DNA of 64,000 nt from a bacterium (GTDB lineage: Bacteria > Bacillota > Clostridia > Lachnospirales > Lachnospiraceae). The notes under the pieces were generated by a model. It saw only the letters and a list, made by a program, of their open reading frames with translations. It was not told the origin of the DNA and made no database searches. Both the position numbers and the translations under genes were made by a program. This document shows, piece after piece, positions 1-42,939 of this stretch; position 1 is the first letter of the stretch, and every line of letters starts with the position of its first letter. The stretch spans positions 1 through 64,000 of the forward strand of contig JAUNGE010000008.1 in NCBI GenBank assembly GCA_030524675.1. Reading direction: 5' to 3'.

Positions 1-47
1 TCCATTATTTAATTATGCAGTTCGAATTATACAAGTAGCACAACGAG

Positions 48-581
48 TTAAATTAAAGGATTGATTGGCAGCAGCCCCTCACCTACAGCATAAGAAAGCA
101 GACTACTTATAATAGCACAATCTTTTGCAATCGTAGCTTCAGATAATCCGCCGCTTTTCCCATCCTTTCTGCTGCCGTCTTTGCGTAATTCCTTAGAATA
201 TTCTTTCACCGTTTTGGAAGTAATATTGTTTATCTTTACATGTCCTAAACGTGGAATAATGCGAAGGTCTAAAATATCCTTATATCCCGCATAAGTAGTA
301 ACAGACAGCATATCTTCATCTGTTCTGGTAGGCTTACTGTCTGAAAGAAACAACTCTGCCAACTGCTGCAATGTCATGCGCTGCCCTTTTACATTTTGAC
401 CTGATTTCACTTCCCGCTCAAAATCTACTTTAAATTGCTCTAATGCTTTTTCAATTTGTTTTGGAGTCATGCCAGGCTCAGGGCTGAAAGTGGCTGTTTC
501 TATAATTTGGCTGCCATCGGCCCTTCTTCCATTACTGACCGTAATTTGATAGGAATTTCCCCTTTTTCTTATGTTTGCCAT
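48..581 (-). pseudogene. tyrosine recombinase/integrase, N-terminal part only
   Basis: About 177 residues matching the front of a Tn916/phage-type tyrosine integrase: an arm-binding N-terminus (MANIRKRGNSYQI...), then a SAM-like core-binding domain with LSEATIAKDC and NPLI at the end. The reading frame stops at 48, just where the catalytic domain should begin, so the R-H-R-H-R-Y residues are absent. Such integrases normally run to about 380-420 residues. I start it at the ATG at 581, which has GGGAAGG upstream, rather than the GTG at 590. It is the last gene of a minus-strand series that begins with the repressor at 1908. The product could bind att arms but could not cut DNA. Whether the missing part lies beyond position 1 or is lost cannot be seen. 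Confidence 0.85.
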
Positions 582-650
582 AGTGTACACCTTCCCTTCT
601 TTTGGCAGAAAGCACCCGCAAAACGAACACCAGTTTATTTTGAATTTTAA

Positions 651-680
651 GAAAAACCGCCTGGAAGCGGCAGCAGGCGG
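651..680 (-). terminator. intrinsic terminator after the Uma2 gene
   Basis: On the minus strand CCGCCT (680-675) pairs with AGGCGG (662-657) and is followed by TTTTT (656-652). The loop contains CCTGCTGCC, the 9-mer that recurs through this element. It lies between the Uma2 gene and the integrase remnant. Confidence 0.6.
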
Positions 681-704
681 CGTATATGATTTTATAGTTC
701 ACAG

Positions 705-1250
705 TTATTCGATGAAGTCAGTGATTGTAATAGTGAGTTCCGGAAAGATACCTACAGTTATAGGCATATCAAAAGTGTATAAAATTGCTGCCTCATCTTC
801 ATCATAACGATAGACTAAAGTTCGATGTTTGGCAGGGTCTACAATCCAATACTCCCTCACTCCAGCTTCCGCATACAACGCATACTTTGTGGTGTAGTCC
901 ATTTTACGGCTTGAAGGAGATACAATCTCAATTACCATATCCGGCGCGCCAGTACAGCCGCGTTCTGTCAGCTTGTTCTTATCACAAATAACTGCAATAT
1001 CCGGCTCAACATAGGTGGTATCGTCTGCATAAAGGTTTACAGCGAAGGGAGCGGCATAGACCTTACATGTTCCACAATTTGATTTGATAAACTGGTGAAT
1101 AGCAGAAGAAAGTTCTATAGATAAATTTTGATGAATCCTCATAGGCGGAGCCATAGCATACAGCTTCCCATCAATCAATTCTGCCCTTTCCCCTTCTGGA
1201 AGGTTCCAGTAGTCTTCTGCGGTATAAATACGTTCTTTTGGCAATGGCAT
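705..1250 (-). CDS. Uma2 family putative endonuclease
   Basis: 181 residues with the Uma2 pattern of a PD-(D/E)XK-type fold: VEPDIAVI near residue 87, then GAPDMVIEIVSPSS, a Lys in the TTKYALY stretch, and AGVREYWIVDP. The usual family length is 180-200, so it looks complete. I use the ATG at 1250, eight bases after AAAGGGG, rather than the TTG at 1256. It sits 22 bases below the ImmA-like gene in the repressor transcript. Uma2 proteins are predicted nucleases without a well-settled role and are common as cargo. A part in element maintenance or defence would be guesswork. Confidence 0.85.
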   Translation of the reverse strand: MPLPKERIYTAEDYWNLPEGERAELIDGKLYAMAPPMRIHQNLSIELSSAIHQFIKSNCGTCKVYAAPFAVNLYADDTTYVEPDIAVICDKNKLTERGCTGAPDMVIEIVSPSSRKMDYTTKYALYAEAGVREYWIVDPAKHRTLVYRYDEDEAAILYTFDMPITVGIFPELTITITDFIE

Positions 1251-1272
1251 AAACAAAACCCCTTTCTATAAA

Positions 1273-1497
1273 CTACATAGCCTTTTCTATATCATCAGCA
1301 GATTCTTTTTCAAAGTCATGTTCCATAATGTGCAGCAAGGCATGTTGATAAGCCTGCATCTGCTGCTCGTAGGTAAGCCTTGCATTAATGAATATGGTAA
1401 AGCTGCCATCCTCATTGAAAACAACCTGTTCTTTTACCTTTGTAGGCATATTTAAAAAATGCACCCCTATATCTTCAGTCAGTAATGGATGGTTCAA
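1273..1497 (-). CDS. small ImmA-like protein with degenerate metallopeptidase motif
   Basis: 74 residues resembling the core of the ImmA/IrrE fold that partners XRE repressors: a beta-rich part (FTIFINARLTYEQQMQAYQ) followed by HALLHI, where an active member would have HEXXH. The catalytic Glu is Ala here, so proteolysis is doubtful. The start is TTG at 1497, nine bases after GAGGGG and three bases beyond the repressor stop, so translation is probably coupled to the repressor. In ICEBs1-type systems ImmA cleaves the repressor to switch on excision. A catalytically dead relative might act by binding instead. Many such short proteins in clostridial elements are unstudied. Confidence 0.6.
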   Translation of the reverse strand: MNHPLLTEDIGVHFLNMPTKVKEQVVFNEDGSFTIFINARLTYEQQMQAYQHALLHIMEHDFEKESADDIEKAM

Positions 1498-1500
1498 TAT

Positions 1501-1908
1501 TTAACACCCCTCAATATCATTTCCCCGTTCTCTTGCTTTTAAGCGTTTCATAAAGTCTATATGTGCCCGTAACTCTTCTGGTTCTATGTCGCGGGCTACA
1601 TGGAAGAGAGAACGCAAGTCTGGATTCTCAAAAACTTCCTGGGCGATTTCGCGCGTTTCATCATTCATGTAGTAATGCCCCACAGTTTCAGGTAAAAGAG
1701 TAGTCTTATTGGTTCTTCCTAAAAGATAGTCTGTATCAACATTGAATAGGTCTGCAATAGCCTCCAAAGTCTCAAAATCAGGCTCTCTTGCGCCAGTTTC
1801 ATACATTCCTATTGTGCTTCTTGAAACACCTAATTTTTCTGCTATTTCGGCTTGCGTATATCCACTGGATACTCTCATATTTTTAAATATGTTCTGAAAG
1901 CTTCCCAT
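1501..1908 (-). CDS. XRE-family repressor of the element
   Basis: 135 residues. An N-terminal Cro/C1-type HTH spans about residues 8-62 (SSGYTQAEIAEKLGVSRSTI, then GAREPDFETLEAIADLFNVD and YLLGR), followed by a short helical tail (HVARDIEPEELRAHIDFMKRLK) suited to dimerisation. The start at 1908 has GGAGGGG upstream. It is transcribed away from the Cro-like gene at 2054 and the space between holds three palindromes of one type. It is therefore the probable master repressor, autoregulating and silencing the rightward operon. The ImmA-like gene follows immediately. Confidence 0.9.
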   Translation of the reverse strand: MGSFQNIFKNMRVSSGYTQAEIAEKLGVSRSTIGMYETGAREPDFETLEAIADLFNVDTDYLLGRTNKTTLLPETVGHYYMNDETREIAQEVFENPDLRSLFHVARDIEPEELRAHIDFMKRLKARERGNDIEGC

Positions 1909-1939
1909 GTTGTTCCCCTCCTCTCTATATTTAATACTT

Positions 1940-1956
1940 TATCACATATAGTGATA
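1940..1956. promoter_or_regulatory. operator O1, XRE switch
   Basis: TATCAC-ATATA-GTGATA, a perfect 6-bp inverted repeat with a 5-bp centre. It lies in the leader/promoter of the leftward repressor gene. Together with the sites at 1970 and 2018 it defines the consensus TRTCAC-N5-GTGAYA. Confidence 0.75.
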
Positions 1957-1969
1957 AAAAGCAAGCGTT

Positions 1970-1986
1970 TGTCACAAAATGTGTTG
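1970..1986. promoter_or_regulatory. operator O2 (imperfect), overlapping the rightward -35
   Basis: TGTCAC-AAAAT-GTGTTG: the left arm is perfect and the right arm degenerate. Its right end overlaps the TTGACA of the rightward promoter at 1984-1989, so occupancy would block RNA polymerase. Confidence 0.65.
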
Positions 1987-2012
1987 ACACTTGGAAGAAA
2001 CTGTGCTATATT
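1984..2012 (+). promoter_or_regulatory. rightward early promoter of the element
   Basis: TTGACA (1984-1989), 17-bp spacer, TATATT (2007-2012). It drives the Cro-like gene at 2054 and the operon behind it, and is bracketed by operators at 1970 and 2018. Confidence 0.8.
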
Positions 2013-2017
2013 GATTG

Positions 2018-2034
2018 TGTCACTAATAGTGACA
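2018..2034. promoter_or_regulatory. operator O3, XRE switch
   Basis: TGTCAC-TAATA-GTGACA, a perfect palindrome with the same geometry as the site at 1940, placed over the start region of the rightward transcript. Confidence 0.75.
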
Positions 2035-2053
2035 GAAAGAGGTGAAAAATAAT

Positions 2054-2269
2054 ATGGTTAAATATGGGAAGCGTTTAGCAGAATTAAGAGGAAACAAAAG
2101 TCAATCCGAAGTAGCGAAAGACCTTGGAATAGCTACATCTACACTGGGAATGTATGAAACAGACCAAAGACGCCCTAAAGATTCTGTAAAAATCGCGATT
2201 GCTCAATATTATGGGGTAACTGTTCAGGAAATTTTTTTTGATGAAGATTGTCACGAAAAAGGACAGTAA
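2054..2269 (+). CDS. Cro-like XRE-family regulator
   Basis: 71 residues, essentially a single HTH domain (AELRGNKSQSEVAKDLGIAT, STLGMYETDQRRPKDSVK, then YYGVTVQEIFF). I place the start at the ATG at 2054 because AGAGGTG ends ten bases upstream and overlaps the alternative GTG at 2042. It is the first gene under the 1984-2012 promoter and faces the repressor, the classic CI/Cro arrangement. It probably competes for the same three operators and commits the element to its active state. Confidence 0.85.
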   Translation: MVKYGKRLAELRGNKSQSEVAKDLGIATSTLGMYETDQRRPKDSVKIAIAQYYGVTVQEIFFDEDCHEKGQ

Positions 2270-2288
2270 GGGGAGGGAGCGTGATTCA

Positions 2289-2540
2289 ATGGCAACAATA
2301 CCGGAAATGCTGACACTCAGACAGGCAGCAGCCAAAACAGGGCTTTCTTATGATTATCTGAGAAAGTTGTGCTTACAGAAAAAGATAATCTTTGTAAAAG
2401 CTGGTAACAAGTATCTCATCAACATGGAAAAGCTTACTGCTTTCTTAAACGGTGAGGACGTGACAGCGGGGAGAAAAACACTGATTCATACAGAACGTTT
2501 TACGGGCCGTATCCGCAAGGCAGAGGGAAAGGAGGAATAG
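2289..2540 (+). CDS. excisionase-like HTH (MerR/HTH_17 type) protein
   Basis: 83 residues. LTLRQAAAKTGLSYDYLRKL is the usual opening of Xis-like HTH_17 proteins, followed by KKIIFVKAGNKYLINMEKLTAFLNG and a basic tail. The ATG at 2289 lies behind GGGGAGGGAG and is preferred to the upstream in-frame start at 2238. Its place directly behind the Cro-like gene fits directional control of excision together with the now broken integrase at 48-581. It could equally be a plain transcriptional regulator. Confidence 0.75.
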   Translation: MATIPEMLTLRQAAAKTGLSYDYLRKLCLQKKIIFVKAGNKYLINMEKLTAFLNGEDVTAGRKTLIHTERFTGRIRKAEGKEE

Positions 2541-2543
2541 AAG

Positions 2544-2876
2544 ATGCAGAAAGAAAAGAAGCCTGCTGCCGCTTCTGCACTCCTGCGCTTTCTGGTGGCG
2601 GACATGCTGCCGAAGGGAAAAGAGAACGCAGTCAGCACAGCATACCTTTACAAAGCACTGGGTTTTACAGATGCCAGAAGCCTTCAGACAGAAATTGCCA
2701 GGGAAAGAGAGGCGGGCGCTGTGATTCTCTCCACCTGTCAGGACGGCGGCGGGTATTATCTGCCAGGAAGCGCCGCAGAGGTGAAAGAGTTCATCGAAAC
2801 GTTGGAGAGCAGAGCAAAGAACACCTTTCTTGCGCTGCGTTCGGCGCGTCGATGGCTGCGGCAGCAGGAAGGCTAA
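2544..2876 (+). CDS. winged-helix-like protein of unknown function
   Basis: 110 residues, three bases after the preceding stop and tightly coupled to it. The region VSTAYLYKALGFTDARSLQT, a basic helix (EIAREREAG), and ILSTCQDGGGYYLPG read like an HTH followed by a wing. The C-terminus is helical and strongly basic (ARRWLRQQEG). I do not recognise a named family. The context, between the excisionase-like gene and the candidate replication gene, suggests a DNA-binding role. Both of its ends carry copies of the element-wide 9-mer (2572-2580 and 2860-2868). Confidence 0.65.
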   Translation: MQKEKKPAAASALLRFLVADMLPKGKENAVSTAYLYKALGFTDARSLQTEIAREREAGAVILSTCQDGGGYYLPGSAAEVKEFIETLESRAKNTFLALRSARRWLRQQEG

Positions 2877-2894
2877 AATGCAGAAGGGGCGAAT

Positions 2895-3320
2895 ATGAGC
2901 CGAAGCAAAAATAAGAAAGGTTACAAGCCAGGAAGTTTTGAGAGTACAGGAGTAAGTAAAGATACGACAGCAAGCCTTTACAACAGTATGCTTACACATC
3001 CTGCTTTTATTACACTCAAAACACGCCAGAAGATACTGTATGTGTATATCAAATTACAGCTTTTCGGAAAAAGAAAGCCCCGTCACGATTATCCGGACAT
3101 AGAAGAGGTATCAAGCGATTTGTGCTTTTACTTAAATCATGCAGCAGTAGTTGAATATGGGCTTTATACCGAAAAGAATCATAAAGACTTCTATCAGGAT
3201 ATGCAAGAGCTGGAAGAACATGGATTCATTGAGAAGATAAGTTCTGGAAGAGCACAAAGGAAAAAAAGTATATATAAGTTCAGTAGCAAATGGCAGGAAT
3301 GGAAAGCGGATGATAGATGA
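2895..3320 (+). CDS. winged-helix protein beside an iteron-like array; candidate initiator or regulator
   Basis: 141 residues starting at an ATG about nine bases behind AGAAGGGG. It opens with a basic stretch (MSRSKNKKGYKPGSF). A helical core (TRQKILYVYIKLQLFGKRKP) and a C-terminal part with DMQELEEHGFIEKISSGRAQ then RKKSIYKFSS look like the recognition helix and wing of a winged-helix domain. The stop is only 14 bases before four copies of one long repeat (3335-3470), an arrangement typical of replication initiators with iterons or of autoregulators. Which of the two it is cannot be decided from sequence. No DnaA-box cluster was seen. Confidence 0.55.
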   Translation: MSRSKNKKGYKPGSFESTGVSKDTTASLYNSMLTHPAFITLKTRQKILYVYIKLQLFGKRKPRHDYPDIEEVSSDLCFYLNHAAVVEYGLYTEKNHKDFYQDMQELEEHGFIEKISSGRAQRKKSIYKFSSKWQEWKADDR

Positions 3321-3334
3321 TAAATTCAAAATAC

Positions 3335-3470
3335 GTGTGAGCTATTTCCCCATCAGAAGACTTTTGGTGTGAGCTATTTCCCCATCAGCTGCAAAAATTT
3401 ACTTTTTGATGGGGAAATAACTCACAGTACTTGCAAACAAAATGCACTTTTTAATGGGGAAATAGCTCAC
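3335..3470. repeat. four-copy iteron-like array, two direct and two inverted
   Basis: The unit GTGAGCTATTTCCCCATC appears as two direct copies at 3335-3356 and 3367-3388 (identical over 22 bp, 32-bp spacing) and as two inverted copies at 3408-3425 and 3453-3470 (45-bp spacing, one or two mismatches). The layout is two forward units facing two reverse units across about 20 bp, so the strand can also fold into a long hairpin. It lies in the gap between the winged-helix gene and the next small ORF, consistent with an origin or an operator. Confidence 0.8.
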
Positions 3471-3556
3471 AGATATATATTAATAATACCATACAGTACC
3501 ATTTTAATAAAAAGTGAATACCAACAGAAAAAACAGGAAGGGGCAGTGCAACAGCA

Positions 3557-3745
3557 GTGAAAGCATTAAAAAGCATCGCACAGTATGCAGTCATGAAGTG
3601 GATGCAGCAGGAAGGGTTTGCGGTAGAGTGCTTCAAAGTGGATTTTATCAGTGAGCATGAAGCAGTGATTACGGATGCAACAGGCGAACAGCTTAAAGTG
3701 ATATATGACAGTACCAGTAAAGCAGTATATGCTGTAGAAGAATGA
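3557..3745 (+). CDS. hypothetical small element protein
   Basis: 62 residues from a GTG at 3557 with GGAAGGGG about fifteen bases upstream, so initiation may be weak. The sequence (MKALKSIAQYAVMKWMQQEG...) starts with an amphipathic helix, followed by alternating beta-like stretches ending in KAVYAVEE. No known domain was recognised. Its stop overlaps the next start (ATGA at 3742-3745), so the two are probably translationally coupled. Confidence 0.5.
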   Translation: MKALKSIAQYAVMKWMQQEGFAVECFKVDFISEHEAVITDATGEQLKVIYDSTSKAVYAVEE

Positions 3746-4008
3746 AGGAAGAAGGAAATCAAGAGATGAACGAAGAAAGAAACACCTGGGTGAATTATAC
3801 CATTCCACACCGTCCAGCAGCGGAGACAAGCGCAGAAATGTACTGGGCAGCGGTAAGAAGAGAGCAGCAGGAGAAACAGGCAAGAGCAAGAAGAAAAGCC
3901 TATAATAAGGCAATGAGAAAGGCAGAGCTTGCTATTAAGGCAGCAGGCGCGATGTGGGTTATGGCAGTGCTTCTGTTTGCCTTTTCACTGGCAAGAGTAG
4001 TGATGTAA
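3742..4008 (+). CDS. small protein with a C-terminal membrane helix
   Basis: 88 residues (80 if the ATG at 3766, which follows GGAAGAAGGAAATCAAGAG, is the true start). A charged, Arg/Lys/Gln-rich helix (RREQQEKQARARRKAYNKAM) precedes one hydrophobic segment (AGAMWVMAVLLFAFSLARVV) at the very C-terminus. This is the pattern of a tail-anchored inner-membrane protein. It overlaps the preceding ORF by four bases. Function unknown. Confidence 0.55.
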   Translation: MKEEGNQEMNEERNTWVNYTIPHRPAAETSAEMYWAAVRREQQEKQARARRKAYNKAMRKAELAIKAAGAMWVMAVLLFAFSLARVVM

Positions 4009-4015
4009 AAAAGAA

Positions 4016-4047
4016 GCCCTCTGGGAAGCAGAAACTTTCCAGGGGGC
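4016..4047. terminator. strong hairpin after the tail-anchored ORF
   Basis: GCCCTCTGGGAA pairs with TTTCCAGGGGGC across an eight-base loop, with wobbles. There is no T-run on the plus side, but on the minus strand it is followed by TTCTTTTTT. It may be a weak or bidirectional terminator, and it is followed at once by GGCAGCAGG at 4051. Confidence 0.35.
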
Positions 4048-4249
4048 AAGGGCAGCAGGTGATGCTGCTGTATGCAAGCAAGTATATAGTAGCATCTTGC
4101 TGGAAGAAAAGAAAGAGGTTTTGTATTTTAGGAAATGGTTTTGAACTGCCAGCCTTTTTGATTAATACCTATACATGGATATGTCAAATAGTACGCAAGC
4201 TGGTGTTCAAAATAGTATGCAAAATAGTGTTCATGAAAAAGGAAAGAAT

Positions 4250-4393
4250 ATGGAAAAAGAAAATGGAGACTTAAAAAGCGATTGGATGAGAAAAAACATC
4301 ATCCACAAAATAAACAATATAAGTGCAAGAGATGTACGCATTGTATATTATTTTTTGATTGGACTTTTGAATGGAGGAGAAAAGGGGAAATGA
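4250..4393 (+). CDS. tiny protein, IY-F-I motif family copy 1
   Basis: 47 residues from the ATG at 4250, which follows AAAGGAAAG. The longer reading from 4175 lacks a ribosome site. The C-terminal half (IIHKINNISARDVRIVYYFL then IGLL) carries a pattern of small hydrophobics, Asn, a charged pair and aromatic YYF. The 52-residue ORF at 4683 carries the same pattern (MVNEIHNTGYLKMIYGFV). Short proteins of this look are frequent in Firmicute mobile elements and have no assigned role. It is coupled to the next gene by an ATGA overlap. Confidence 0.5.
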   Translation: MEKENGDLKSDWMRKNIIHKINNISARDVRIVYYFLIGLLNGGEKGK

Positions 4394-4686
4394 TAAGAGT
4401 AAATGAAATCCGCCAAGGCATCGCGGATGAAGTGAAGGGAATCAGAAATAAAATCATTTTGAATAAAGTTCTGGAGACTGCGAGTCTGTTTCGTCGGGCG
4501 TACAGCAATACAGAGTATAAGACGCTCACAGATGCAGAATGGAGAAAGGTGCAGATAATCAATGATGTGATTTCCTGCAATAACAGCAAATTGAAAGAGC
4601 TGCGATGTGTCCAGGCTTTCACACGAAATATGCTTGATGAGCAATGTAAAAGAATCATGAAAGAGAGAGATGCGAAAAGAGCATGA
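4390..4686 (+). CDS. hypothetical helical protein
   Basis: 98 residues starting at the ATG at 4390, behind GGAGAAAAGGGG. The protein looks all-helical and charged (MIRVNEIRQGIADEVKGIRN, then TDAEWRKVQIINDVIS, then CKRIMKERDAKRA). The start and stop overlap both neighbours by four bases (4390-4393 and 4683-4686), forming a three-gene cassette between the two tiny related ORFs. No family recognised. Confidence 0.55.
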   Translation: MIRVNEIRQGIADEVKGIRNKIILNKVLETASLFRRAYSNTEYKTLTDAEWRKVQIINDVISCNNSKLKELRCVQAFTRNMLDEQCKRIMKERDAKRA

Positions 4687-4841
4687 TAAATTATAAAAAA
4701 GAGATTCAAACAATGGTGAATGAAATTCATAACACCGGATATTTGAAGATGATTTATGGTTTTGTAAGAGCTACATATACGGAAGATGAAAGATTACACA
4801 ATAGAGTGAAGAAGCAAAAAGCAAGCGGCAAAGAGGCTTAA
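4683..4841 (+). CDS. tiny protein, IY-F-I motif family copy 2
   Basis: 52 residues (MINYKKEIQTMVNEIHNTGY..., ending KKQKASGKEA), ATG at 4683 overlapping the previous stop, TAA at 4839-4841. LKMIYGFVRATY matches the VRIVYYFLIGLL segment of the ORF at 4250. It closes the cassette and the hairpin terminator at 4916 follows about 75 bases later. Function unknown. Confidence 0.5.
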   Translation: MINYKKEIQTMVNEIHNTGYLKMIYGFVRATYTEDERLHNRVKKQKASGKEA

Positions 4842-4915
4842 AAAAAATCAAATAGAGCATAAAGAAGAAAGCGGCGGGCAGGCTGCAAGGTGGGGAAGCA
4901 ATTTGTGACTTCATC

Positions 4916-4937
4916 GGCAGCAGCTGGCTGCTTTTTT
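4916..4937 (+). terminator. intrinsic terminator after the small-ORF cassette
   Basis: GCAGC-AGCTG-GCTGC followed by TTTTTT (4932-4937). The left arm is a variant of the element 9-mer (GGCAGCAGC). Confidence 0.65.
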
Positions 4938-5066
4938 GTTAATGTTCGCGATGGAAATGTCGGAAACATCGAAGCGTGAGGGAAGCGTGAGAAAACGCCA
5001 CTTTGGAGAAGCCATAGGGACTAAATTTGACTTAGGGCGTTCTGTTGCAAGAAAAGTGGCAAACAA

Positions 5067-5387
5067 ATGACATACAAAAGGGCAAGCAAAGAGCATAGTA
5101 AATTCACTGTATTTACAATAAAAAACTATGGTTTGTATCAAGCAAGTGACAAGCAAAACGACAAGCAGATGACAAGCAAGCGACAGACAAACGACACGCA
5201 GAATATAAATATCATCACTGGTGTTTTCGCTTATTTTTTAGCGAAAGTCTTTTTAGAAAAGCAAAATGAAGCAAAAAAAGCAAATGGTTTTTTTGAAAAG
5301 CAAACGAAAGCAAAACAAAGCAAAATTTTTACTACGGTATATACTACGCTTTTTACTACGGTATACACTTATAAATTGAAAGTATAA
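5067..5387 (+). pseudogene. relic resembling a replisome-organiser (phage_rep_org/DnaD-like) gene
   Basis: The segment KFTVFTIKNYGLYQ followed by repeated DKQ/SKRQ units (QASDKQNDKQMTSKRQTNDT) looks like the end of the N-terminal DNA-binding domain and the tandem linker of phage or element replication organisers. What follows is low-complexity Lys/Gln/Phe sequence, and upstream coding is in another frame with a stop, so it reads as a decayed fragment. The recognition is by pattern only. Confidence 0.35.
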
Positions 5388-5555
5388 AGCGAAGCATTTC
5401 TTTTTAGCCACCTGCTGCCGCTGCCTGGGGTATTCCTTCAGAGAAGAATTCAGGTTTTTTCAGGTTACGAAAACTGTCCCGCCGTTTCTGTAGTATCTGC
5501 TGCTTCATCCGGCGTGTCTGGTTCTCTTTTCGTGTGCTGTAAAAAGGGTCAAATA

Positions 5556-5610
5556 TTGAACCGAAAACAGCACCATAAATGGAACTGAAAACGGCACTGA
5601 AAATGGCGCC
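5556..5610 (+). repeat. three short direct repeats before the sigma gene
   Basis: ACCGAAAACAGCAC, ACTGAAAACGGCAC and ACTGAAAATGGCGC follow one another. The first two are 24 bp apart and the third overlaps the second. One frame reads TEN-S/G repeats (INGTENGTENGA), so this may be a leftover of repetitive coding sequence rather than a protein-binding site. Confidence 0.45.
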
Positions 5611-5718
5611 TTATTTTCTCAGTGCTTTTTGGAAGACCTGCCAGGCAGCAGGGTACACCATATAGGCTATTTTGCTTTCCCAATTTGAGCAGCAAGTTTT
5701 TATACAGGAGGTTTTATC

Positions 5719-6585
5719 ATGACAAACGAAGAACTTGTACAGAGAATAAAGGATGGAGACAGCGCCGCATTGGAAGAGCTGTACAGCCAGGTAAAAAGCT
5801 TTATTCATTCTATAGCCTGGAAATACAGAGGATATGCAGAGCTTGAGGATTTGGAACAGGAGGGCTTTTTAGGCTTGTACGACGCTGTAGAACATTATAA
5901 CCCTGCTGCCGGTTACACATTTCTTACCTATGCCGGACACTGGATAAAGCAGCACATAAGAAAGTACATCAATGACTGCGCTTTCTCTGTCAGGATTCCA
6001 GCATATACCATGCAGAAGGTACGGGATGCAGAAAAAGCCGCTGCCATGCTGGAGCAGAAAACCACGTCAGACAGCAGGAAAGCCCCATTAAGCCGCCTTG
6101 ATAGAGAAATTATAGAACAAATAGAGCAAAGTAGGAAAACCGCCTTAAAACGGCACACAGTAAGCCTAGATGCGCCCATAAAGGGCTTTGAGGAAGATAT
6201 AACCCTTGCGGATACCATAGCAGCAGATGGTAGCCTGGAATCTTCTGTACTGGATGCACTGGCAGCGGATGAGCTGCGGGAAATTCTTTGGAAGCTGGTG
6301 GATGCACTGCCAAAAGAACAAGCCAGCGTGCTTCATCTGTGTTATGAGGATAATTTGACAAGGGCAGCAGCAGGGGACCATCTGGGAATCAGTCATGAAT
6401 GTGTCAGGAGACATGAAAGACAGGCTTTAAGGGAACTCAGGGAGCCTAAAAACAGCCGGCACCTGCTGCCATACTGGAGCGATACATACAGTGCCGCAAT
6501 ACGCGGCTGCGGCGTGCAGCGATTCAAACAGACATTTACAAGTTCCACAGAGAGAGCAGCTATACACAATTTGGAAGAGCCATAA
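5719..6585 (+). CDS. sigma-70 family RNA polymerase sigma factor of the element
   Basis: 288 residues with an excellent AGGAGG site. Region 2 occupies about residues 5-85 (ELVQRIKDGDSAALEELYSQ; LEDLEQEGFLGLYDAVEHY; FLTYAGHWIKQHIRKYI). A polar linker follows, then region 4 at about 205-255 (LPKEQASVLHLCYEDNLTRA, and HTH ISHECVRRHERQALRELR). The C-terminal tail (RFKQTFTSSTERAAI) is a feature I associate with sigma factors carried by clostridial integrative elements. It probably directs polymerase to element promoters, but its target sequence is unknown. A weak hairpin follows at 6652. Two element 9-mers lie inside the gene (5902, 6462). Confidence 0.88.
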   Translation: MTNEELVQRIKDGDSAALEELYSQVKSFIHSIAWKYRGYAELEDLEQEGFLGLYDAVEHYNPAAGYTFLTYAGHWIKQHIRKYINDCAFSVRIPAYTMQKVRDAEKAAAMLEQKTTSDSRKAPLSRLDREIIEQIEQSRKTALKRHTVSLDAPIKGFEEDITLADTIAADGSLESSVLDALAADELREILWKLVDALPKEQASVLHLCYEDNLTRAAAGDHLGISHECVRRHERQALRELREPKNSRHLLPYWSDTYSAAIRGCGVQRFKQTFTSSTERAAIHNLEEP

Positions 6586-6651
6586 CGGCCGATACAATAC
6601 AGCACGTATACTCTTTCAGAGCATGGCCCTTCTGCTTCTGCGTCGCTCATC

Positions 6652-6684
6652 AGGACGCGGCAGCAGGGGCAGCGGGTCCTTCTT
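6652..6684 (+). terminator. possible terminator after the sigma gene
   Basis: AGGAC (6652-6656) and GTCCT (6676-6680) enclose a loop containing GGCAGCAGG, followed by TCTT. The stem is only five pairs, so the call is weak. Confidence 0.35.
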
Positions 6685-8074
6685 ATGGGGTGTACCCTGT
6701 CTGCGGGGCCGAGTGAGGCCGGTTATTCTCTCTTTGAAATGAAAAAAAATAGGCGATTTCCTTCCGCTTTTTGGTTCTGAAGCAAGGCTGTAGAAATTTC
6801 TGCATCCTGGAAGAGTTACCCGTACAGCAGGGACCTCAAGAGGAAGTGCAAAAGAGTGCATACAGGCTTGAAACTCGAGGAAAGCCGGAACGAACAGAGA
6901 GCGAACAGAGAGAAAAGTGTTTTTCCTTTGGAATCGTTGTCAGAACAGATGGAATGAAACAAGAATATACTACAAGTGTACATCAAGTACGGTTGTTCTT
7001 TAGTTGTGCAATAATCGGCCGAAAAAGGGGCCAAAGTCGGCGGTATGGATGAAGATGGCAATTGTTCATTGAAAGAGCCAAAACGGGAAATAGAGGCATT
7101 TAAGGCGCTGGAGACTGGGGGGTATTTAGTGGCAGCGGGCAGCCACATTTCCAAAACAACACAACTACTTCAGAAAACTTCAGTTTCAAACGCAATAGCA
7201 ATGACTCCACCTGTCAAACAGGCACCCTAAGAAATCCCAATAAATCCGAGTGTTTCAAAGCCAATGAACCCCCATAAAATCAAGCATTAAAAGAATATAA
7301 ACGTTCGGATAAAGTAATGCAACGTTCGGAGCGTTGCAAATGAAGCCGTGAGGAAGCCGTAAAGAATATGGTGCCCTAAAACGGGGCGGCATTTCTCTAG
7401 GGCGTTTTGTGGGGTAGGTATTGCCGATGGTATCACAGAGCAGAAGGCGGGCGGCTCAGTTTTGAGCTGTCAATGCTCTGATGCTGTGCCCTGCTGCCTG
7501 TATTCAAATTTCAGAGTCCCTAAAGGGCAAAAAGAAAGCCCTCAGCTGCCTATACTGAGAGCTTCCCTGTGCTTATGTTACCGTGTGTTTGCGTGGAGAT
7601 ACTAATATCATCTTTCATCGGCATCTTAAGCATAGCATGTTCTAAAAGCTCTGACAAGGAAAACTGTGCTGTTTTTCACAAAATCATGAAAAAGGTATGG
7701 TGAGATTTGTGAGGCCCTAAAACGGGGAGTTACCTGCTGCCAGATTCCCGACATTCTGGGAAACTTCAGAGACCCTAAAAGAGTAACAGGGAAGCAAGAT
7801 TACTTCTGCCGGAGCCAAAATTGGTGCGGGGTGGCAAGATACCACCTCATAAGCTTCAAAGGTCTTGATACTGCTTATATGCTTTAGAAAGGGTATCCCC
7901 GCTATGGAGACCCCTCAAAGCAGGAGGAAAAGCCATTTTGGGATTGTCGGGGAAGCAAAGCAACGCCCTATACAGAATATGCTGTGTAAGGGGGGCGTTA
8001 CTGCCGATACCCTTTAGAAACATAAGTGCAGTATTTCCTGCTGCCTGTATGAACCAGCTCAATTATTTGTGACA

Positions 8075-8160
8075 TAACCAAAATGTAGTTTTTCATAACC
8101 TGGAAGAAACCAAAGTGCAGTTTTTCGTAACCAAACCAGGGGCAAGACATAACCAAAATA
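8075..8160 (+). repeat. iteron-like direct repeats
   Basis: Two 26-bp units sharing ACCAAA..TG.AGTTTTTC.TAACC lie at 8075-8100 and 8107-8132 (32-bp spacing, the same spacing as the forward pair at 3335/3367). A third partial copy, ATAACCAAAATA, is at 8149-8160. No open frame explains them. Confidence 0.6.
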
Positions 8161-8442
8161 TAAATATCTGCATTGCCATATAACAAAGTTGATAATCTCA
8201 ACGACAAAACAGCGTCGAGTTTGGGACAGCGTGACGGTTGGCTTGTCGCAGAAATAGTAAACTCAATAACGAATCGTTATCAAGCTTAGACAGTAGCACC
8301 ATCTCAGGCACTCAGAATAGGCGACAGGGTATCAGTACATAGATTCAATCTAGGGGCTTCTGTCCCGTCTGTGCGTAAGCAGCGGAAAAGAACTGATATT
8401 CGATTTTACTCAAAAAAGAGTAAAAGTATCTGCTACCAGATT

Positions 8443-8695
8443 CCAGGAACGCGCAAGAACGAACTCCAGTTCGCAAGCGGCGCGACATATTCACTCTTCC
8501 AAAACATAGATGTAGCAGTGGCAGCAGGAGCAAAACAGTAAGAGCTTTTTATACATTTGTGGCGCTCTGTAAGCCCCATACAGCCATTTCGGGACGTTTG
8601 ATAGATATTTATGCATGATGCAGGTAAAAAGGTGAAAATAAGGCGCTGAACACTTTGCTCACCGTGAACAAATACGAACTCTAGTTCGTTCCTGG
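8443..8695. repeat. inverted repeats flanking about 250 bp, MITE-like
   Basis: CCAGGAACG (8443-8451) followed by the palindrome CGAACTCCAGTTCG (8460-8473) is mirrored by CGAACTCTAGTTCG ending in CGTTCCTGG (8687-8695). The enclosed DNA has no gene. The layout resembles a small miniature inverted-repeat element, or two copies of one regulatory hairpin. No target duplication was identified. Confidence 0.4.
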
Positions 8696-8698
8696 CAC

Positions 8699-8747
8699 AA
8701 AAAAGCTGCTGCCGGACTGAAAGCATAGTGTTTCAATTTGGCAGCAG
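8699..8747 (-). terminator. intrinsic terminator for the 8890-9045 transcript
   Basis: On the minus strand CTGCTGCC (8747-8740) pairs with GGCAGCAG (8713-8706), with a nested TGAAA/TTTCA stem, followed by six T (8704-8699). The stem is built from the element 9-mer. It lies about 140 bases beyond the 51-residue ORF. Confidence 0.6.
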
Positions 8748-8797
8748 GATACAATAAAAACGCCTTCCAAAATTGGAAAGCGAGTGAAATGTGGGTA

Positions 8798-8864
8798 TTG
8801 TTTTTAGGCATACAATTTGCTATACTCTTTGTGATGGAGAGCGGTGGCAAGCCCGCCCTCTCTG
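8798..8864 (+). ncRNA. promoter directly in front of a hairpin; possible very short transcript
   Basis: TTGTTT (8798-8803), a 17-bp spacer and TATACT (8821-8826) precede by about ten bases a GC-rich hairpin (8837-8864, GAGAGCGG...CCGCCCTCTC) followed by TGTTTTGCC. The predicted RNA would be around 40 nt, little more than the hairpin. It could be a decoy, an antisense regulator or a replication primer, or a chance pairing of signals. Confidence 0.3.
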
Positions 8865-8889
8865 TTTTGCCTTTTGCATTTGTTTCTGC

Positions 8890-9045
8890 TTAATCTTCGA
8901 TGTTATTCTGTGTATCTTCGATTAACTCGTCAATCAGCTTTTCAGCTTCCTCGAAGTTCTTTTCATGGATTGCTTTTTTCAGAAGTTTTAATTGTCTCAT
9001 CAAGCTTCTTAAATATCCTTTGAATACTGCCATCTCTTCGTTCAT
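8890..9045 (-). CDS. small helical protein
   Basis: 51 residues from the ATG at 9045, behind AAAGGAGAG. The longer reading to 9120 lacks a ribosome site. The sequence (MAVFKGYLRSLMRQLKLLKK, then EKNFEEAEKLIDELIEDTQN) predicts two amphipathic helices, as in small antitoxin-like or adaptor proteins. No family recognised. It is expressed from its own promoter at 9126-9154, which carries the same AT-rich operator word as the HTH gene upstream, so both probably belong to one regulon. Confidence 0.6.
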   Translation of the reverse strand: MNEEMAVFKGYLRSLMRQLKLLKKAIHEKNFEEAEKLIDELIEDTQNNIED

Positions 9046-9125
9046 GTACTCTCCTTTCCCCGATGGTTCTGTCTTGCCCCATTGCCTGCGGATATTGTCA
9101 TTCCGTTTCCTTCCTGACAATTAAT

Positions 9126-9154
9126 ATTATACTTTATTTTTAATGTAATGTCAA
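9126..9154 (-). promoter_or_regulatory. promoter of the 51-residue ORF with embedded operator
   Basis: On the minus strand: TTGACA (9154-9149), a 17-bp spacer beginning TTACATTA, and TATAAT (9131-9126), a consensus promoter. TTTACATTATTTTTAAA lies just upstream at about 9161-9177. Confidence 0.8.
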
Positions 9155-9181
9155 TCTGTTTTTACATTATTTTTAAAGTTT

Positions 9182-9391
9182 TTACTCAGAATCTTCTATA
9201 TATTTTATGATATTACCAGGTTGCATATCTAATAGCTTGCAAATTTTTTCTAAAGCAATAATTCCTACCATTTCACCACGGCGCAAAGATTGTATGGCAT
9301 TTTCACCTAACAGTTTTTCTTTTCTTAATCTTGTGGTATTATATCCGCTTTCTTTCAAGGCTTCTAATACATCAAACTTATATACAAACAT
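9182..9391 (-). CDS. XRE-type HTH regulator, probable local repressor
   Basis: 69 residues forming one HTH domain: VLEALKESGYNTTRLRKEKL, LGENAIQSLRRGEMVGIIAL, EKICKLLDMQPGNIIKYI. The last part is the usual end of minimal Cro/C1-type regulators. It stands between two genes whose promoters, like its own, hold the word TACATTATTTT in the spacer. It is therefore probably autoregulating and controls the HIRAN gene and the 51-residue ORF. The start is at 9391, with AAGAAGGG upstream. Confidence 0.8.
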   Translation of the reverse strand: MFVYKFDVLEALKESGYNTTRLRKEKLLGENAIQSLRRGEMVGIIALEKICKLLDMQPGNIIKYIEDSE

Positions 9392-9427
9392 AATAAAAAT
9401 CCCTTCTTCCTATTCAAATTAGATATT

Positions 9428-9456
9428 ATTGTACATTATTTTTAAACATTTTTCAA
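9428..9456 (-). promoter_or_regulatory. promoter of the HTH gene with embedded operator
   Basis: On the minus strand TTGAAA (9456-9451), 17-bp spacer, TACAAT (9433-9428). The spacer contains the complement of ACATTATTTTTAAACATT. A separate palindrome TTTACA-T-TGTAAA lies at 9463-9475. Confidence 0.75.
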
Positions 9457-9527
9457 TGGCTTTTTACATTGTAAATAATGCACAAATATCGGGGGAATAT
9501 ATGCATTGTTTTTGGTGTACTCACATA

Positions 9528-9556
9528 TTGAAATTACATTATTTTAGGTGTATAAT
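9528..9556 (+). promoter_or_regulatory. promoter of the HIRAN gene with embedded operator
   Basis: TTGAAA (9528-9533), 17-bp spacer starting TTACATTATTTTA, TATAAT (9551-9556). It is divergent from the HTH gene promoter. Confidence 0.85.
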
Positions 9557-9586
9557 TATAGCATAAAAGAGAGGAGATGACGCAGA

Positions 9587-10024
9587 ATGAAACAAATAAC
9601 CAAAGTGAGAAAGGCCGTGTGTATCATGGCAAATGCACTGAAGAAAGCTGGTTATACCCTGTCAGAAGCCTTCAAGAAGGCATGGAGACGGATAAAACTC
9701 ACTATGACAATTAGAGCAGTGGGGACCACGTTTGAGAATCGGCAGGAACGCTTGCAGTTCCTAAAACAGTTCCGGCCGAATGACCTGCATGTGACGCTGG
9801 AGAGAGAGCCGGAAAACTCTCTTGACAGCTGTGCTATAAAGATAGTAGTACATATTCTTCCAATAGCAAAGAAGACGATGATTGGATATGTGCCGCGTGG
9901 ACTGGCTGGAGAGCTGGCAAAAGTGCTTAATATGGGCATGTCGGTAAAAGCATCCCTGCTGGAGATTATCGGCGGATACAGCTACAAAGAGACACTGGGA
10001 GCACTCATTAACATCACAATATAG
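9587..10024 (+). CDS. HIRAN-domain protein
   Basis: 145 residues starting at the ATG at 9587 behind GAGGAG. After a basic N-terminal helix region, residues 43-145 follow the HIRAN pattern: AVGTTFENRQERLQFLKQF, LHVTLEREPENSLDSCAIKI, and IGYVPRGLAGELAKVLN. HIRAN domains recognise damaged DNA ends or stalled forks and are often single-domain proteins on bacterial mobile elements. The gene has a near-consensus promoter whose spacer holds the probable operator of the HTH protein at 9182. It is probably a DNA-binding accessory protein; the precise role is unknown. Confidence 0.85.
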   Translation: MKQITKVRKAVCIMANALKKAGYTLSEAFKKAWRRIKLTMTIRAVGTTFENRQERLQFLKQFRPNDLHVTLEREPENSLDSCAIKIVVHILPIAKKTMIGYVPRGLAGELAKVLNMGMSVKASLLEIIGGYSYKETLGALINITI

Positions 10025-10029
10025 AAAAG

Positions 10030-10061
10030 CCCCTGACAAGGCGGGCAGGCTTTGACAGGGG
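10030..10061 (+). terminator. hairpin after the HIRAN gene
   Basis: CCCCTGACAA...TTTGACAGGGG, with a mismatch in each arm, followed by AATTTTCC. The T-tract is weak, so it may only attenuate read-through into the gene at 10177. Confidence 0.45.
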
Positions 10062-10176
10062 AATTTTCCAACAATACCGAAATAATAGGGGATGAAGAAA
10101 GTATAACATGCCTGCTGCCGCGCTGCAAGCAGAATCTGCGCAGTATGCAGGCAAGAAAAGAAAGGATGGAAAGTAT

Positions 10177-10554
10177 ATGCAAAAGATGGTTATGATTCCA
10201 GAATGGCGGTATCAGAAGATGCTACAAACCTGCAGCACTTTGGCGGAAGAGGTGCAGGGCCTAAAAGATACAGTTCTGCCCCGTAGCTATGATGGACCAG
10301 ACGGGACAGCAGCGAAAAACCTGGAAGAACTGTTTGACTTCTTCTGTACAGAAGCAGAAGCTACAGAACAGGATACAGACCACAAGCGCACCTGGACGGC
10401 ATCGGCAGCAGTCAGAAAGCATTTAACCGCCCTGCTGCCCGTCGATGAGCTGGAAGATGCAATGGAGATTATCATTTTGGCAATGGGAGAATTTGAAAAG
10501 TCGGGCTTTATGAACGGTTTTCGATATGCCACGCGGATTTTCAAAGAGTGTTAA
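10177..10554 (+). CDS. hypothetical element protein
   Basis: 125 residues from the ATG at 10177 (AAAGGATGG upstream). The upstream in-frame ATG at 10108 lacks a good site and would place an element 9-mer and a GCCTGC/GCAGGC hairpin inside the gene. The sequence begins MQKMVMIPEWRYQKMLQTCS and is helical and acidic, ending FEKSGFMNGFRYATRIFKEC. Short proteins with this kind of MVMIP-ER-Y opening are seen in clostridial elements, but I know of no function. It is the last gene before the element end. Confidence 0.6.
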   Translation: MQKMVMIPEWRYQKMLQTCSTLAEEVQGLKDTVLPRSYDGPDGTAAKNLEELFDFFCTEAEATEQDTDHKRTWTASAAVRKHLTALLPVDELEDAMEIIILAMGEFEKSGFMNGFRYATRIFKEC

Positions 10555-10692
10555 GACATGCTATGGAATGTTATGGCTGCAGAAGCTGGAGCGGGTCACA
10601 TAGATGTGATGGGCAACCAATACAGAGGACGGCAGCGCAAAGTAAGCCATAGCAGAGTTATAAAGAAGTCATAGAGTCAATCAAAACACAGA

Positions 10693-10735
10693 GGGCAGCA
10701 GGGGCACCGGTTTGGGTGCATCTGCTGTCCTTTTT
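10693..10735 (+). terminator. strong intrinsic terminator at the element end
   Basis: GGGCAGCAG pairs with CTGCTGTCC and an inner GCACC pairs with GGTGC, followed by TTTTT. The outer stem is another GGCAGCAGG copy. Confidence 0.85.
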
Positions 10736-10764
10736 ATATTCTTTGAATTTCACTTTTATTTTCC

Positions 10765-10786
10765 ATGTTAGTCAAATGTTAGTCAA
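10765..10786 (+). repeat. tandem ATGTTAGTCAA, candidate integrase arm sites
   Basis: The 11-bp word ATGTTAGTCAA occurs twice head to tail (10765-10775, 10776-10786), about 80 bp from the tRNA 3' end. Short direct repeats at this position are typical of arm-type sites bound by the N-terminal domain of tyrosine integrases. No second set was found near the integrase remnant. Confidence 0.5.
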
Positions 10787-10837
10787 ACAGGAAAATTTTG
10801 CTGATTTTTTGTTCTTTTAACATCTCATAAAATAACA

Positions 10838-10862
10838 AAAACCCTTGATTTACAAGGGTTTT
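10838..10862 (-). terminator. terminator of the tRNA-Thr gene
   Basis: AAACCCTTG-TAAAT-CAAGGGTTT on the minus strand followed by TTGTTATTTT, directly after the tRNA. Confidence 0.75.
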
Positions 10863-10868
10863 CGGGAA

Positions 10869-10941
10869 AGCTAGCGACGGGAATCGAACCCGTGACCTCA
10901 TCACTACCAATGATGTGCGCTACCTACTGTGCCACGCCAGC
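10869..10941 (-). tRNA. tRNA-Thr (GGT anticodon)
   Basis: A 73-nt cloverleaf on the minus strand. The acceptor GCTGGCG pairs with CGCTAGC (one G-T pair), the anticodon stem CATCA/TGATG encloses TTGGTAG giving GGT, and the T arm contains GGTTCGATTCC. CCA is not encoded. It appears to be the integration site of the element to its left, whose end abuts the tRNA 3' end. Confidence 0.93.
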
Positions 10942-11038
10942 TTATATTCTTCTTCAGAAGACCTTAAATAGAATACCATGACATTTTCATTTTGTCAACC
11001 CTATTTTTTATTTTTATAAACCTATTTATAAGCCATTT

Positions 11039-42811: not shown

Positions 42812-42939
42812 CTGTCATTCCTCCAGTTTGTTATGTTTTTGTTTCTTATCTTTTTGCTGTTTTATCTTTTTATTGTTTTATTTTCCTGTTTCTTTTTCTG
42901 ATTTCTGATTTATGCTGTTTTTCTGGCTCGTTCTGATGC

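Follow-up and report, generated by a model that had tools for sequence, protein, structure and literature searches.

A Chi-like candidate word enriched in an integrative element of a Lachnospiraceae bacterium, in related elements and in the host chromosome

Chi sites are signals that make an enzyme degrading DNA ends stop degradation and start repair. The words differ between bacteria (GCTGGTGG in E. coli, GAAGCGG in S. aureus, GCGCGT(G) in L. lactis and GNTGGTGG in H. influenzae), and to our knowledge few have been identified outside the Proteobacteria. Chi is commoner in core than in acquired DNA, Chi-rich phages being a known exception (PMC3784561); a precedent is provided by lambdoid phages without a recombinase of their own, which over-represent Chi (PMC3784561). 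Here we analyse a window of 64,000 nucleotides from a bacterium of the Lachnospiraceae (contig JAUNGE010000008.1, positions 1 to 64,000), the first part of which (1-10870) is an element, W, rich in the 9-mer GGCAGCAGG. We give about an even chance to the view that GGCAGCAG with G, or in certain elements T, as its next base is a Chi-like word read by the host and amassed by W and its relatives in element-specific dialects. The word is called Chi-like for its pattern and is not filed as a Chi site.

The likeness to the Chi sites of RecBCD and AddAB is that of a short, exact, asymmetric and G-rich word which lies both within and between genes, shows a leading-strand excess in the chromosome of a host that encodes AddB, and is in excess in mobile elements, as in the recombinase-less lambdoid phages. 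Unlike known Chi, which has different words, it reaches up to 2.5 copies per kb in the elements, well above the host, is mostly balanced in orientation there and has an element-specific ninth base.

Exact counting on both strands finds GGCAGCAGG/CCTGCTGCC 18 times in window 1-10750 and five times in the other 53 kb. An earlier, sequence-only reading of the window had listed the same 18 and five copies, all of which are present, and had placed all but three correctly (2572, 35690 and 40394 should read 2562, 35680 and 40395). Its random expectation of less than 0.1 copies is not borne out, a third-order Markov model within the element giving 0.53, and the enrichment is therefore about 34-fold. 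Dinucleotide shuffles of the whole window average 0.75 copies, with no more than 3 in any shuffle. That reading would have fallen if other GC-rich 9-mers were equally enriched or if the host had the same density, and neither is the case. GGCAGCAGG is the top 9-mer of W by a wide margin, the runner-up CGGCAGCAG (11 copies) overlaps it, and the lower-ranked 9-mers near it in the list are its own overlaps. Of the 252 copies in the 3.82-Mb host genome, 234 lie outside W, at about one per 16 kb compared with one per 0.6 kb in W, which is about 27 times denser. The balance of orientation that had been described (9:9) also stands.

The exact count places copies within genes at several positions: 2562-2570 (-) and 2860-2868 (+) in the open reading frame (ORF) 2544-2876, 3939-3947 (+) in ORF 3742-4008, 5902-5910 (-) and 6462-6470 (-) in a sigma-factor gene, and 10431-10439 (-) in ORF 10108-10554. 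Others are found at 4051-4059 (+), between genes at 5411-5419 (-), and upstream of the sigma gene at 5644-5652 (+). The gene-poor region contains 6659-6667 (+), 7490-7498 (-), 7733-7741 (-), 8037-8045 (-) and 8520-8528 (+), while 8740-8748 (+) forms an inverted pair with GGCAGCAGC at 8705. The intergenic copy at 669-677 (+) lies within a CCGCCTG/CAGGCGG hairpin, and its aligned counterpart is retained in a second left end, about 90% identical, on contig C69 of the same genome. Finally, 10111-10119 (-) is part of a promoter-like site downstream of a HIRAN-domain gene (TATAAC-n3-CCTGCTGCC) and 10694-10702 (+) of a terminator-like hairpin near the right end. Terminators were rejected as the cause of the excess, many copies being unpaired or within genes. 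The gene-poor region itself (6600-8800) comprises 2.2 kb without convincing genes and is rich in CCTAAAACGGGG-type repeats as well as in words.

Relatives of W were retrieved through its HIRAN protein or an integrase and not through the word, with the exception of L130 and L094. A HIRAN-protein search of viral contigs gave nine contigs. Ranked by enrichment, GGCAGCAG takes first or second place among the 8-mers of six of them (L050, L051, L052, L054, L055 and L057) and third place in L056. The ninth base in L057 is T in 20 copies and G in none. An integrase-alignment search gave nine loci at 54-57% identity, with 59 words in the 49.3 kb that comprise the integrase gene and the DNA upstream of it (1.2 per kb) and 6 words in the 53.6 kb downstream of it (0.11 per kb); since L326 and L330 lie in contigs already retrieved via HIRAN and L327 and L328 appear near-identical, the independent loci are fewer than nine. 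Distant integrases (≤38% identity) are accompanied by 0-1 words. GGCAGCAG followed by G or T is the top word also in related elements and is not private to W. The ParA-type contigs L130 and L094 are word-rich too, but were found by a search for inverted word pairs and thus selected on the word itself; they have no gene in common with W in the stretches compared, and L130 carries its own terminase gene, with words even within its large-subunit gene (terL). Orientation is balanced in most elements (about 12:10 in G405), only L130 and L094 being one-sided. Searches of plasmid and GenBank phage collections found nothing, and the word is not enriched in the first sigma-factor relatives from viral contigs (L002-L004). 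The idea that any host prophage carries it was rejected, as prophage contigs C104 and C90 of the same genome are not enriched.

Across 13 word-rich stretches (147 kb), the word is the first-ranked 8-mer, with 257 copies against 49 expected from a fourth-order model, whereas phage structural regions show 7 for 9.2 expected. With ORFs called by a simple script, there are 2.6 copies per kb between genes and 1.6 per kb within them, in all coding phases and on both strands. These data bear on a compositional or codon artefact, in which runs of Ala-Ala, Gln-Gln and Leu-Leu codons in GC-richer genes would generate the word. The reversed word is indeed 16 times rarer in the genome, and Ala-Ala-Gly contexts make up part of the host background. 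For the elements, however, such an origin is already refuted by synonymous-codon shuffles, which account for only a minority of the copies (GGCAGCAGG in sense, 54 versus 14.8; in antisense, 30 versus 2.4). Antisense and intergenic copies, conservation, and the absence of the word from phage structural genes of similar composition further argue against an artefact, which we hold to be highly improbable. The site is sharply bounded: in 210 non-redundant copies the 8-mer and position 9 hold nearly all the information, the flanks adding almost none, and variants with one mismatch reach no more than about twofold enrichment. In alignments of ≤77% identity, both partners keep 28 of 52 words intact, compared with 7.1 expected from 8-mers of equal GC content; this count is pooled from eight chosen pairs, several of which share members, and omits some pairs that have few or no words in common (among them G403-G405, G404-G405 and the corresponding L075 pairs), which makes it somewhat favourable. 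The sequence comparisons thus indicate that the word is retained by selection, even within genes. Because copies are found between genes and in every coding phase, in numbers that codon usage does not explain, the signal acts on DNA, and the proposal of a DNA-level recognition word gains support from the codon shuffles, from conservation in diverged relatives and from recurrence at different places in relatives.

A pointer to a Chi-type function comes from the host chromosome, of which 1.03 Mb outside W was sampled, the leading strand being assigned from GC skew per stretch. By its excess over codon shuffle (69 versus 23.9), GGCAGCAGG ranks second of 23,567 9-mers, and its observed/expected ratio in the chromosome is about 2.4 in a Markov model, while that of E. 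coli Chi is 2.29 (PMC3784561). There are 65 copies on the leading and 10 on the lagging strand. Relative to codon shuffles, the leading-strand count is 59 versus 20.4 and the lagging-strand count 10 versus 5.7; the leading-strand copies are in excess both as sense words in leading genes (49 versus 18.7) and as antisense words in lagging genes (10 versus 1.7, shuffle maximum 4). In a Chi-type scan for leading-strand excess in genes on either strand, over codon shuffles, GGCAGCAGG heads the 1,289 words that could be tested. The excess of GGCAGCAGT and GGCAGCAGA in the host is small, consistent with the G dialect of W, and the host encodes AddB (addB_Gpos TIGR02773, 972 bits for a cut-off of 903.7, G000:C109). 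GGCAGCAGG is the best candidate for the Chi site of this chromosome. Smaller samples of other genomes are mixed, G116 and G272 leaning the same way and G232 not. The sequence-only reading had offered Chi-like, partition, packaging and uptake signals as options; the first is the best supported, because the same 9-mer leads this unbiased leading-strand scan.

What the words belong to is seen most clearly in G402 (IMGVR_UViG_3300010163_003659), where direct repeats of 20 bp at 42901 and 63341 enclose the word-rich block (42901-63360) within terL. The N-terminal part of the split gene matches positions 260-348 of phrog_2 and the C-terminal part positions 350-596, joining the flanks restores one open frame, and another genome has this type of terL without interruption (L243:10086-11486, at 10443). 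In G403, G405 and L323-L329 (L326 is the L075 contig), too, the integrase is followed by a C-terminal piece of terL, which suggests, but by itself does not prove, that these elements are likewise inserted in terL; both ends are seen only in G402. For L332, an N-terminal terL match is located at another place on the contig. Many word-rich elements thus appear to sit within a prophage terL. As word copies stop at the element edges, it is the inserted element, not the phage, that they belong to. The resemblance to Chi-rich lambdoid phages (PMC3784561) lies in mobile elements with an excess of a host recombination word, concentrated in the non-structural half. In lambdoids, the excess occupies the phage's own origin-to-packaging interval (PMC3784561); here the words are packed in an integrative element distinct from the phage, with sharp edges and often inside terL, and such an interval was dropped as the cause of confinement on account of the terL split in G402. 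The word also flanks the integrase gene as a hairpin, as might be expected of integrase arm-binding sites or of a short dispersed transposable repeat. Yet the repeats at the element ends read TGGTGTCA instead, and it is these that look like integrase arm sites; the word is not located at the ends but spread throughout 10-20 kb, and its flanks share nothing beyond 9 bp. We accord this explanation next to no weight.

The sharp edges also suit a self-tag, by which an element-encoded system would tell element DNA from that of the prophage or helper phage through selective nuclease sparing, replication or packaging. The words end at edges inside terL, the phage halves hold none beyond chance, and the elements interrupt a packaging gene. 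Nevertheless, the ParA-type L130, which has a terminase gene of its own, carries the word even inside terL, the host chromosome has it too, and no candidate effector was identified, all of which makes such a tag rather doubtful.

The main rival to a host reader is one encoded by the elements themselves: a repressor, a silencer, a transcription block of the 'stoperator' type or a partition/condensation protein, with the word as its binding site, as in cluster A mycobacteriophages. Some copies may indeed have local roles as well. In eleven elements (W, G397, G398, G400, G402-G405, L075, L076 and L184), a TATAAY box behind the HIRAN gene is directly followed by a copy (W 10102-10119), 10111 being the single position retained across many relatives, and many elements have an inverted word pair after the integrase. 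Dialects, moreover, are element-specific, as repressor specificities are. The likeness to stoperators (PMC6550527) extends to many copies of an asymmetric word, variant words in relatives and one copy at a promoter-like site. However, stoperators lie mostly in one orientation relative to transcription (PMC6550527), whereas the present copies are sense and antisense, in every phase, and mostly within genes. The exact 8-mer is also unlike degenerate operators, no matching repressor was found in the stretches compared, and the host chromosome is enriched in the same word. In the stretches compared, no DNA-binding protein, nor any other element protein, is common to all word-rich elements, L130 and L094 sharing none of the genes of W; this points to a host reader, and a dedicated element protein seems to us unlikely, though to be taken seriously. 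Two particular candidates are unlikely as well. The HIRAN protein is present in L053, which has few words, and absent from the compared stretches of L130 and L094, which have many; for the small helix-turn-helix (HTH) protein encoded beside it, the AT-rich repeats next to its gene (9122-9470) look more like the operator.

According to the Chi-like reading, the host AddAB helicase-nuclease would be the reader, switching at the word from degradation to recombination, so that degradation halts there. A family of integrative elements, many within prophages, together with some phage-plasmids, would have amassed the word to about 1-2.5 copies per kb; the excess would protect linear or broken element DNA and channel it into host recombination, and the G/T dialect would follow the host species. 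Such a word would account for the exactness, the DNA-level selection, the host leading-strand bias and the dialects, and for its being common to elements without any gene in common. Several observations weigh against it. Chi is polar, and most elements have the word in both orientations. Element density is 10-30 times that of the chromosome (taken with core and accessory genes together), whereas recombinase-less lambdoid phages roughly equal their host in Chi density. Around the elements, prophage DNA shows no enrichment, though Chi should benefit it too; this and the double orientation are left unaccounted for. No T-dialect host genome was found for matching dialects to hosts; one element of T dialect carried by an isolate is IMGVR_UViG_2563367173_000003. 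In addition, other 9-mers reach similar codon-shuffle z-scores in the host, so that its rank there could partly reflect codon-pair bias, and only the leading-strand scan sets GGCAGCAGG apart from them.

In a bolder version of the Chi-like reading, the elements would be a hitherto undescribed integrative family, many members of which interrupt the prophage terminase gene, and would label themselves with up to 2.5 copies per kb of a host Chi-type word in dialects that match the host; the nuclease of the host would then spare and recombine the element while degrading phage DNA, which is poor in the word. Such a self/non-self system built from words alone is speculative and, in our estimate, improbable. 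If the Chi-like reading is true, GGCAGCAGG is a directly testable Chi candidate for the Lachnospiraceae, mobile elements can carry a host recombination word well above chromosomal density, and comparison of mobile elements with the chromosome suggests itself as a sensitive route to Chi words and their dialects. A search of openly licensed papers found none that contains the word as a token of its own and none that mentions 'Chi site' together with Lachnospiraceae. Another lead, independent of the first, is offered by the elements inserted in terL: they disable a prophage packaging gene, which could be restored if excision is precise.

Other systems show partial likenesses. With the DNA uptake sequences of Neisseria and Pasteurellaceae the word shares an exact 9-mer, dialects, inverted intergenic pairs and presence in all reading frames. 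Uptake sequences, though, have a very high density over the whole chromosome of a competent host, unlike the roughly 66 per Mb of this host, and the enrichment here belongs to mobile elements. The orienting words of FtsK and SpoIIIE (KOPS/SRS) are strictly polar, even within integrated elements, whereas orientation in W and most of its relatives is balanced. Phage satellites, including phage-inducible chromosomal islands (PICIs), are mobile elements that lack capsid genes and that a helper phage induces and packages. The present elements resemble them in sequence, as integrative elements of 10-20 kb with an integrase and an early replication-type gene, in which no structural genes of their own were seen; W also has divergent HTH regulators. 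They differ in that many of them appear inserted in prophage terL.

As for the gene content of W, a tyrosine integrase (48-590, -; Pfam Phage_int_SAM_3) is truncated near the contig start to its N-terminal 180 aa and is followed by a Uma2-family protein (705-1256, -), identified by profile and by comparison with several related elements that also have it. The element encodes two divergent HTH regulators. By homology to relatives, 2895-3320 (+) encodes a small early protein, probably of replication type; a homologue with 52% identity is the first gene of the word-rich module in G405, and that of G402 starts with a similar gene. Directly after it, inverted and direct repeats TGTGAGCTATTTCCCCAT (3331-3476, +) constitute a possible replication origin. 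The sigma-70-family factor (5719-6585, +; profile and homology) is common to G402, G404, G405 and L078. Towards the right end, homology places a small, probably HTH-like protein, also common to relatives (9182-9391, -), beside the HIRAN-domain protein from the profile search (9587-10024, +) that served as query for related elements; the AT-rich TTTACATTATTTTTAAA-type motifs repeated around the former are probably its operators. The early gene, sigma factor, HIRAN and Uma2 genes all have homologues in word-rich elements on other contigs. An ORF for a protein without assigned function (10108-10554, +) is the last gene before a predicted tRNA-Thr (10868-10942, -), the probable right attachment site. 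No structural genes were recognised in window 1-10870, and an Rfam search gave only the tRNA above threshold. A short stretch at 8815-8875, for which no Rfam family was found, has matches of 77-94% identity in about 20 other genomes of the family and resembles a promoter with a conserved leader or hairpin after it. The second left end of W on C69 (L017:9472-10868) includes a tandem second Uma2 region and is cut off by the contig end.

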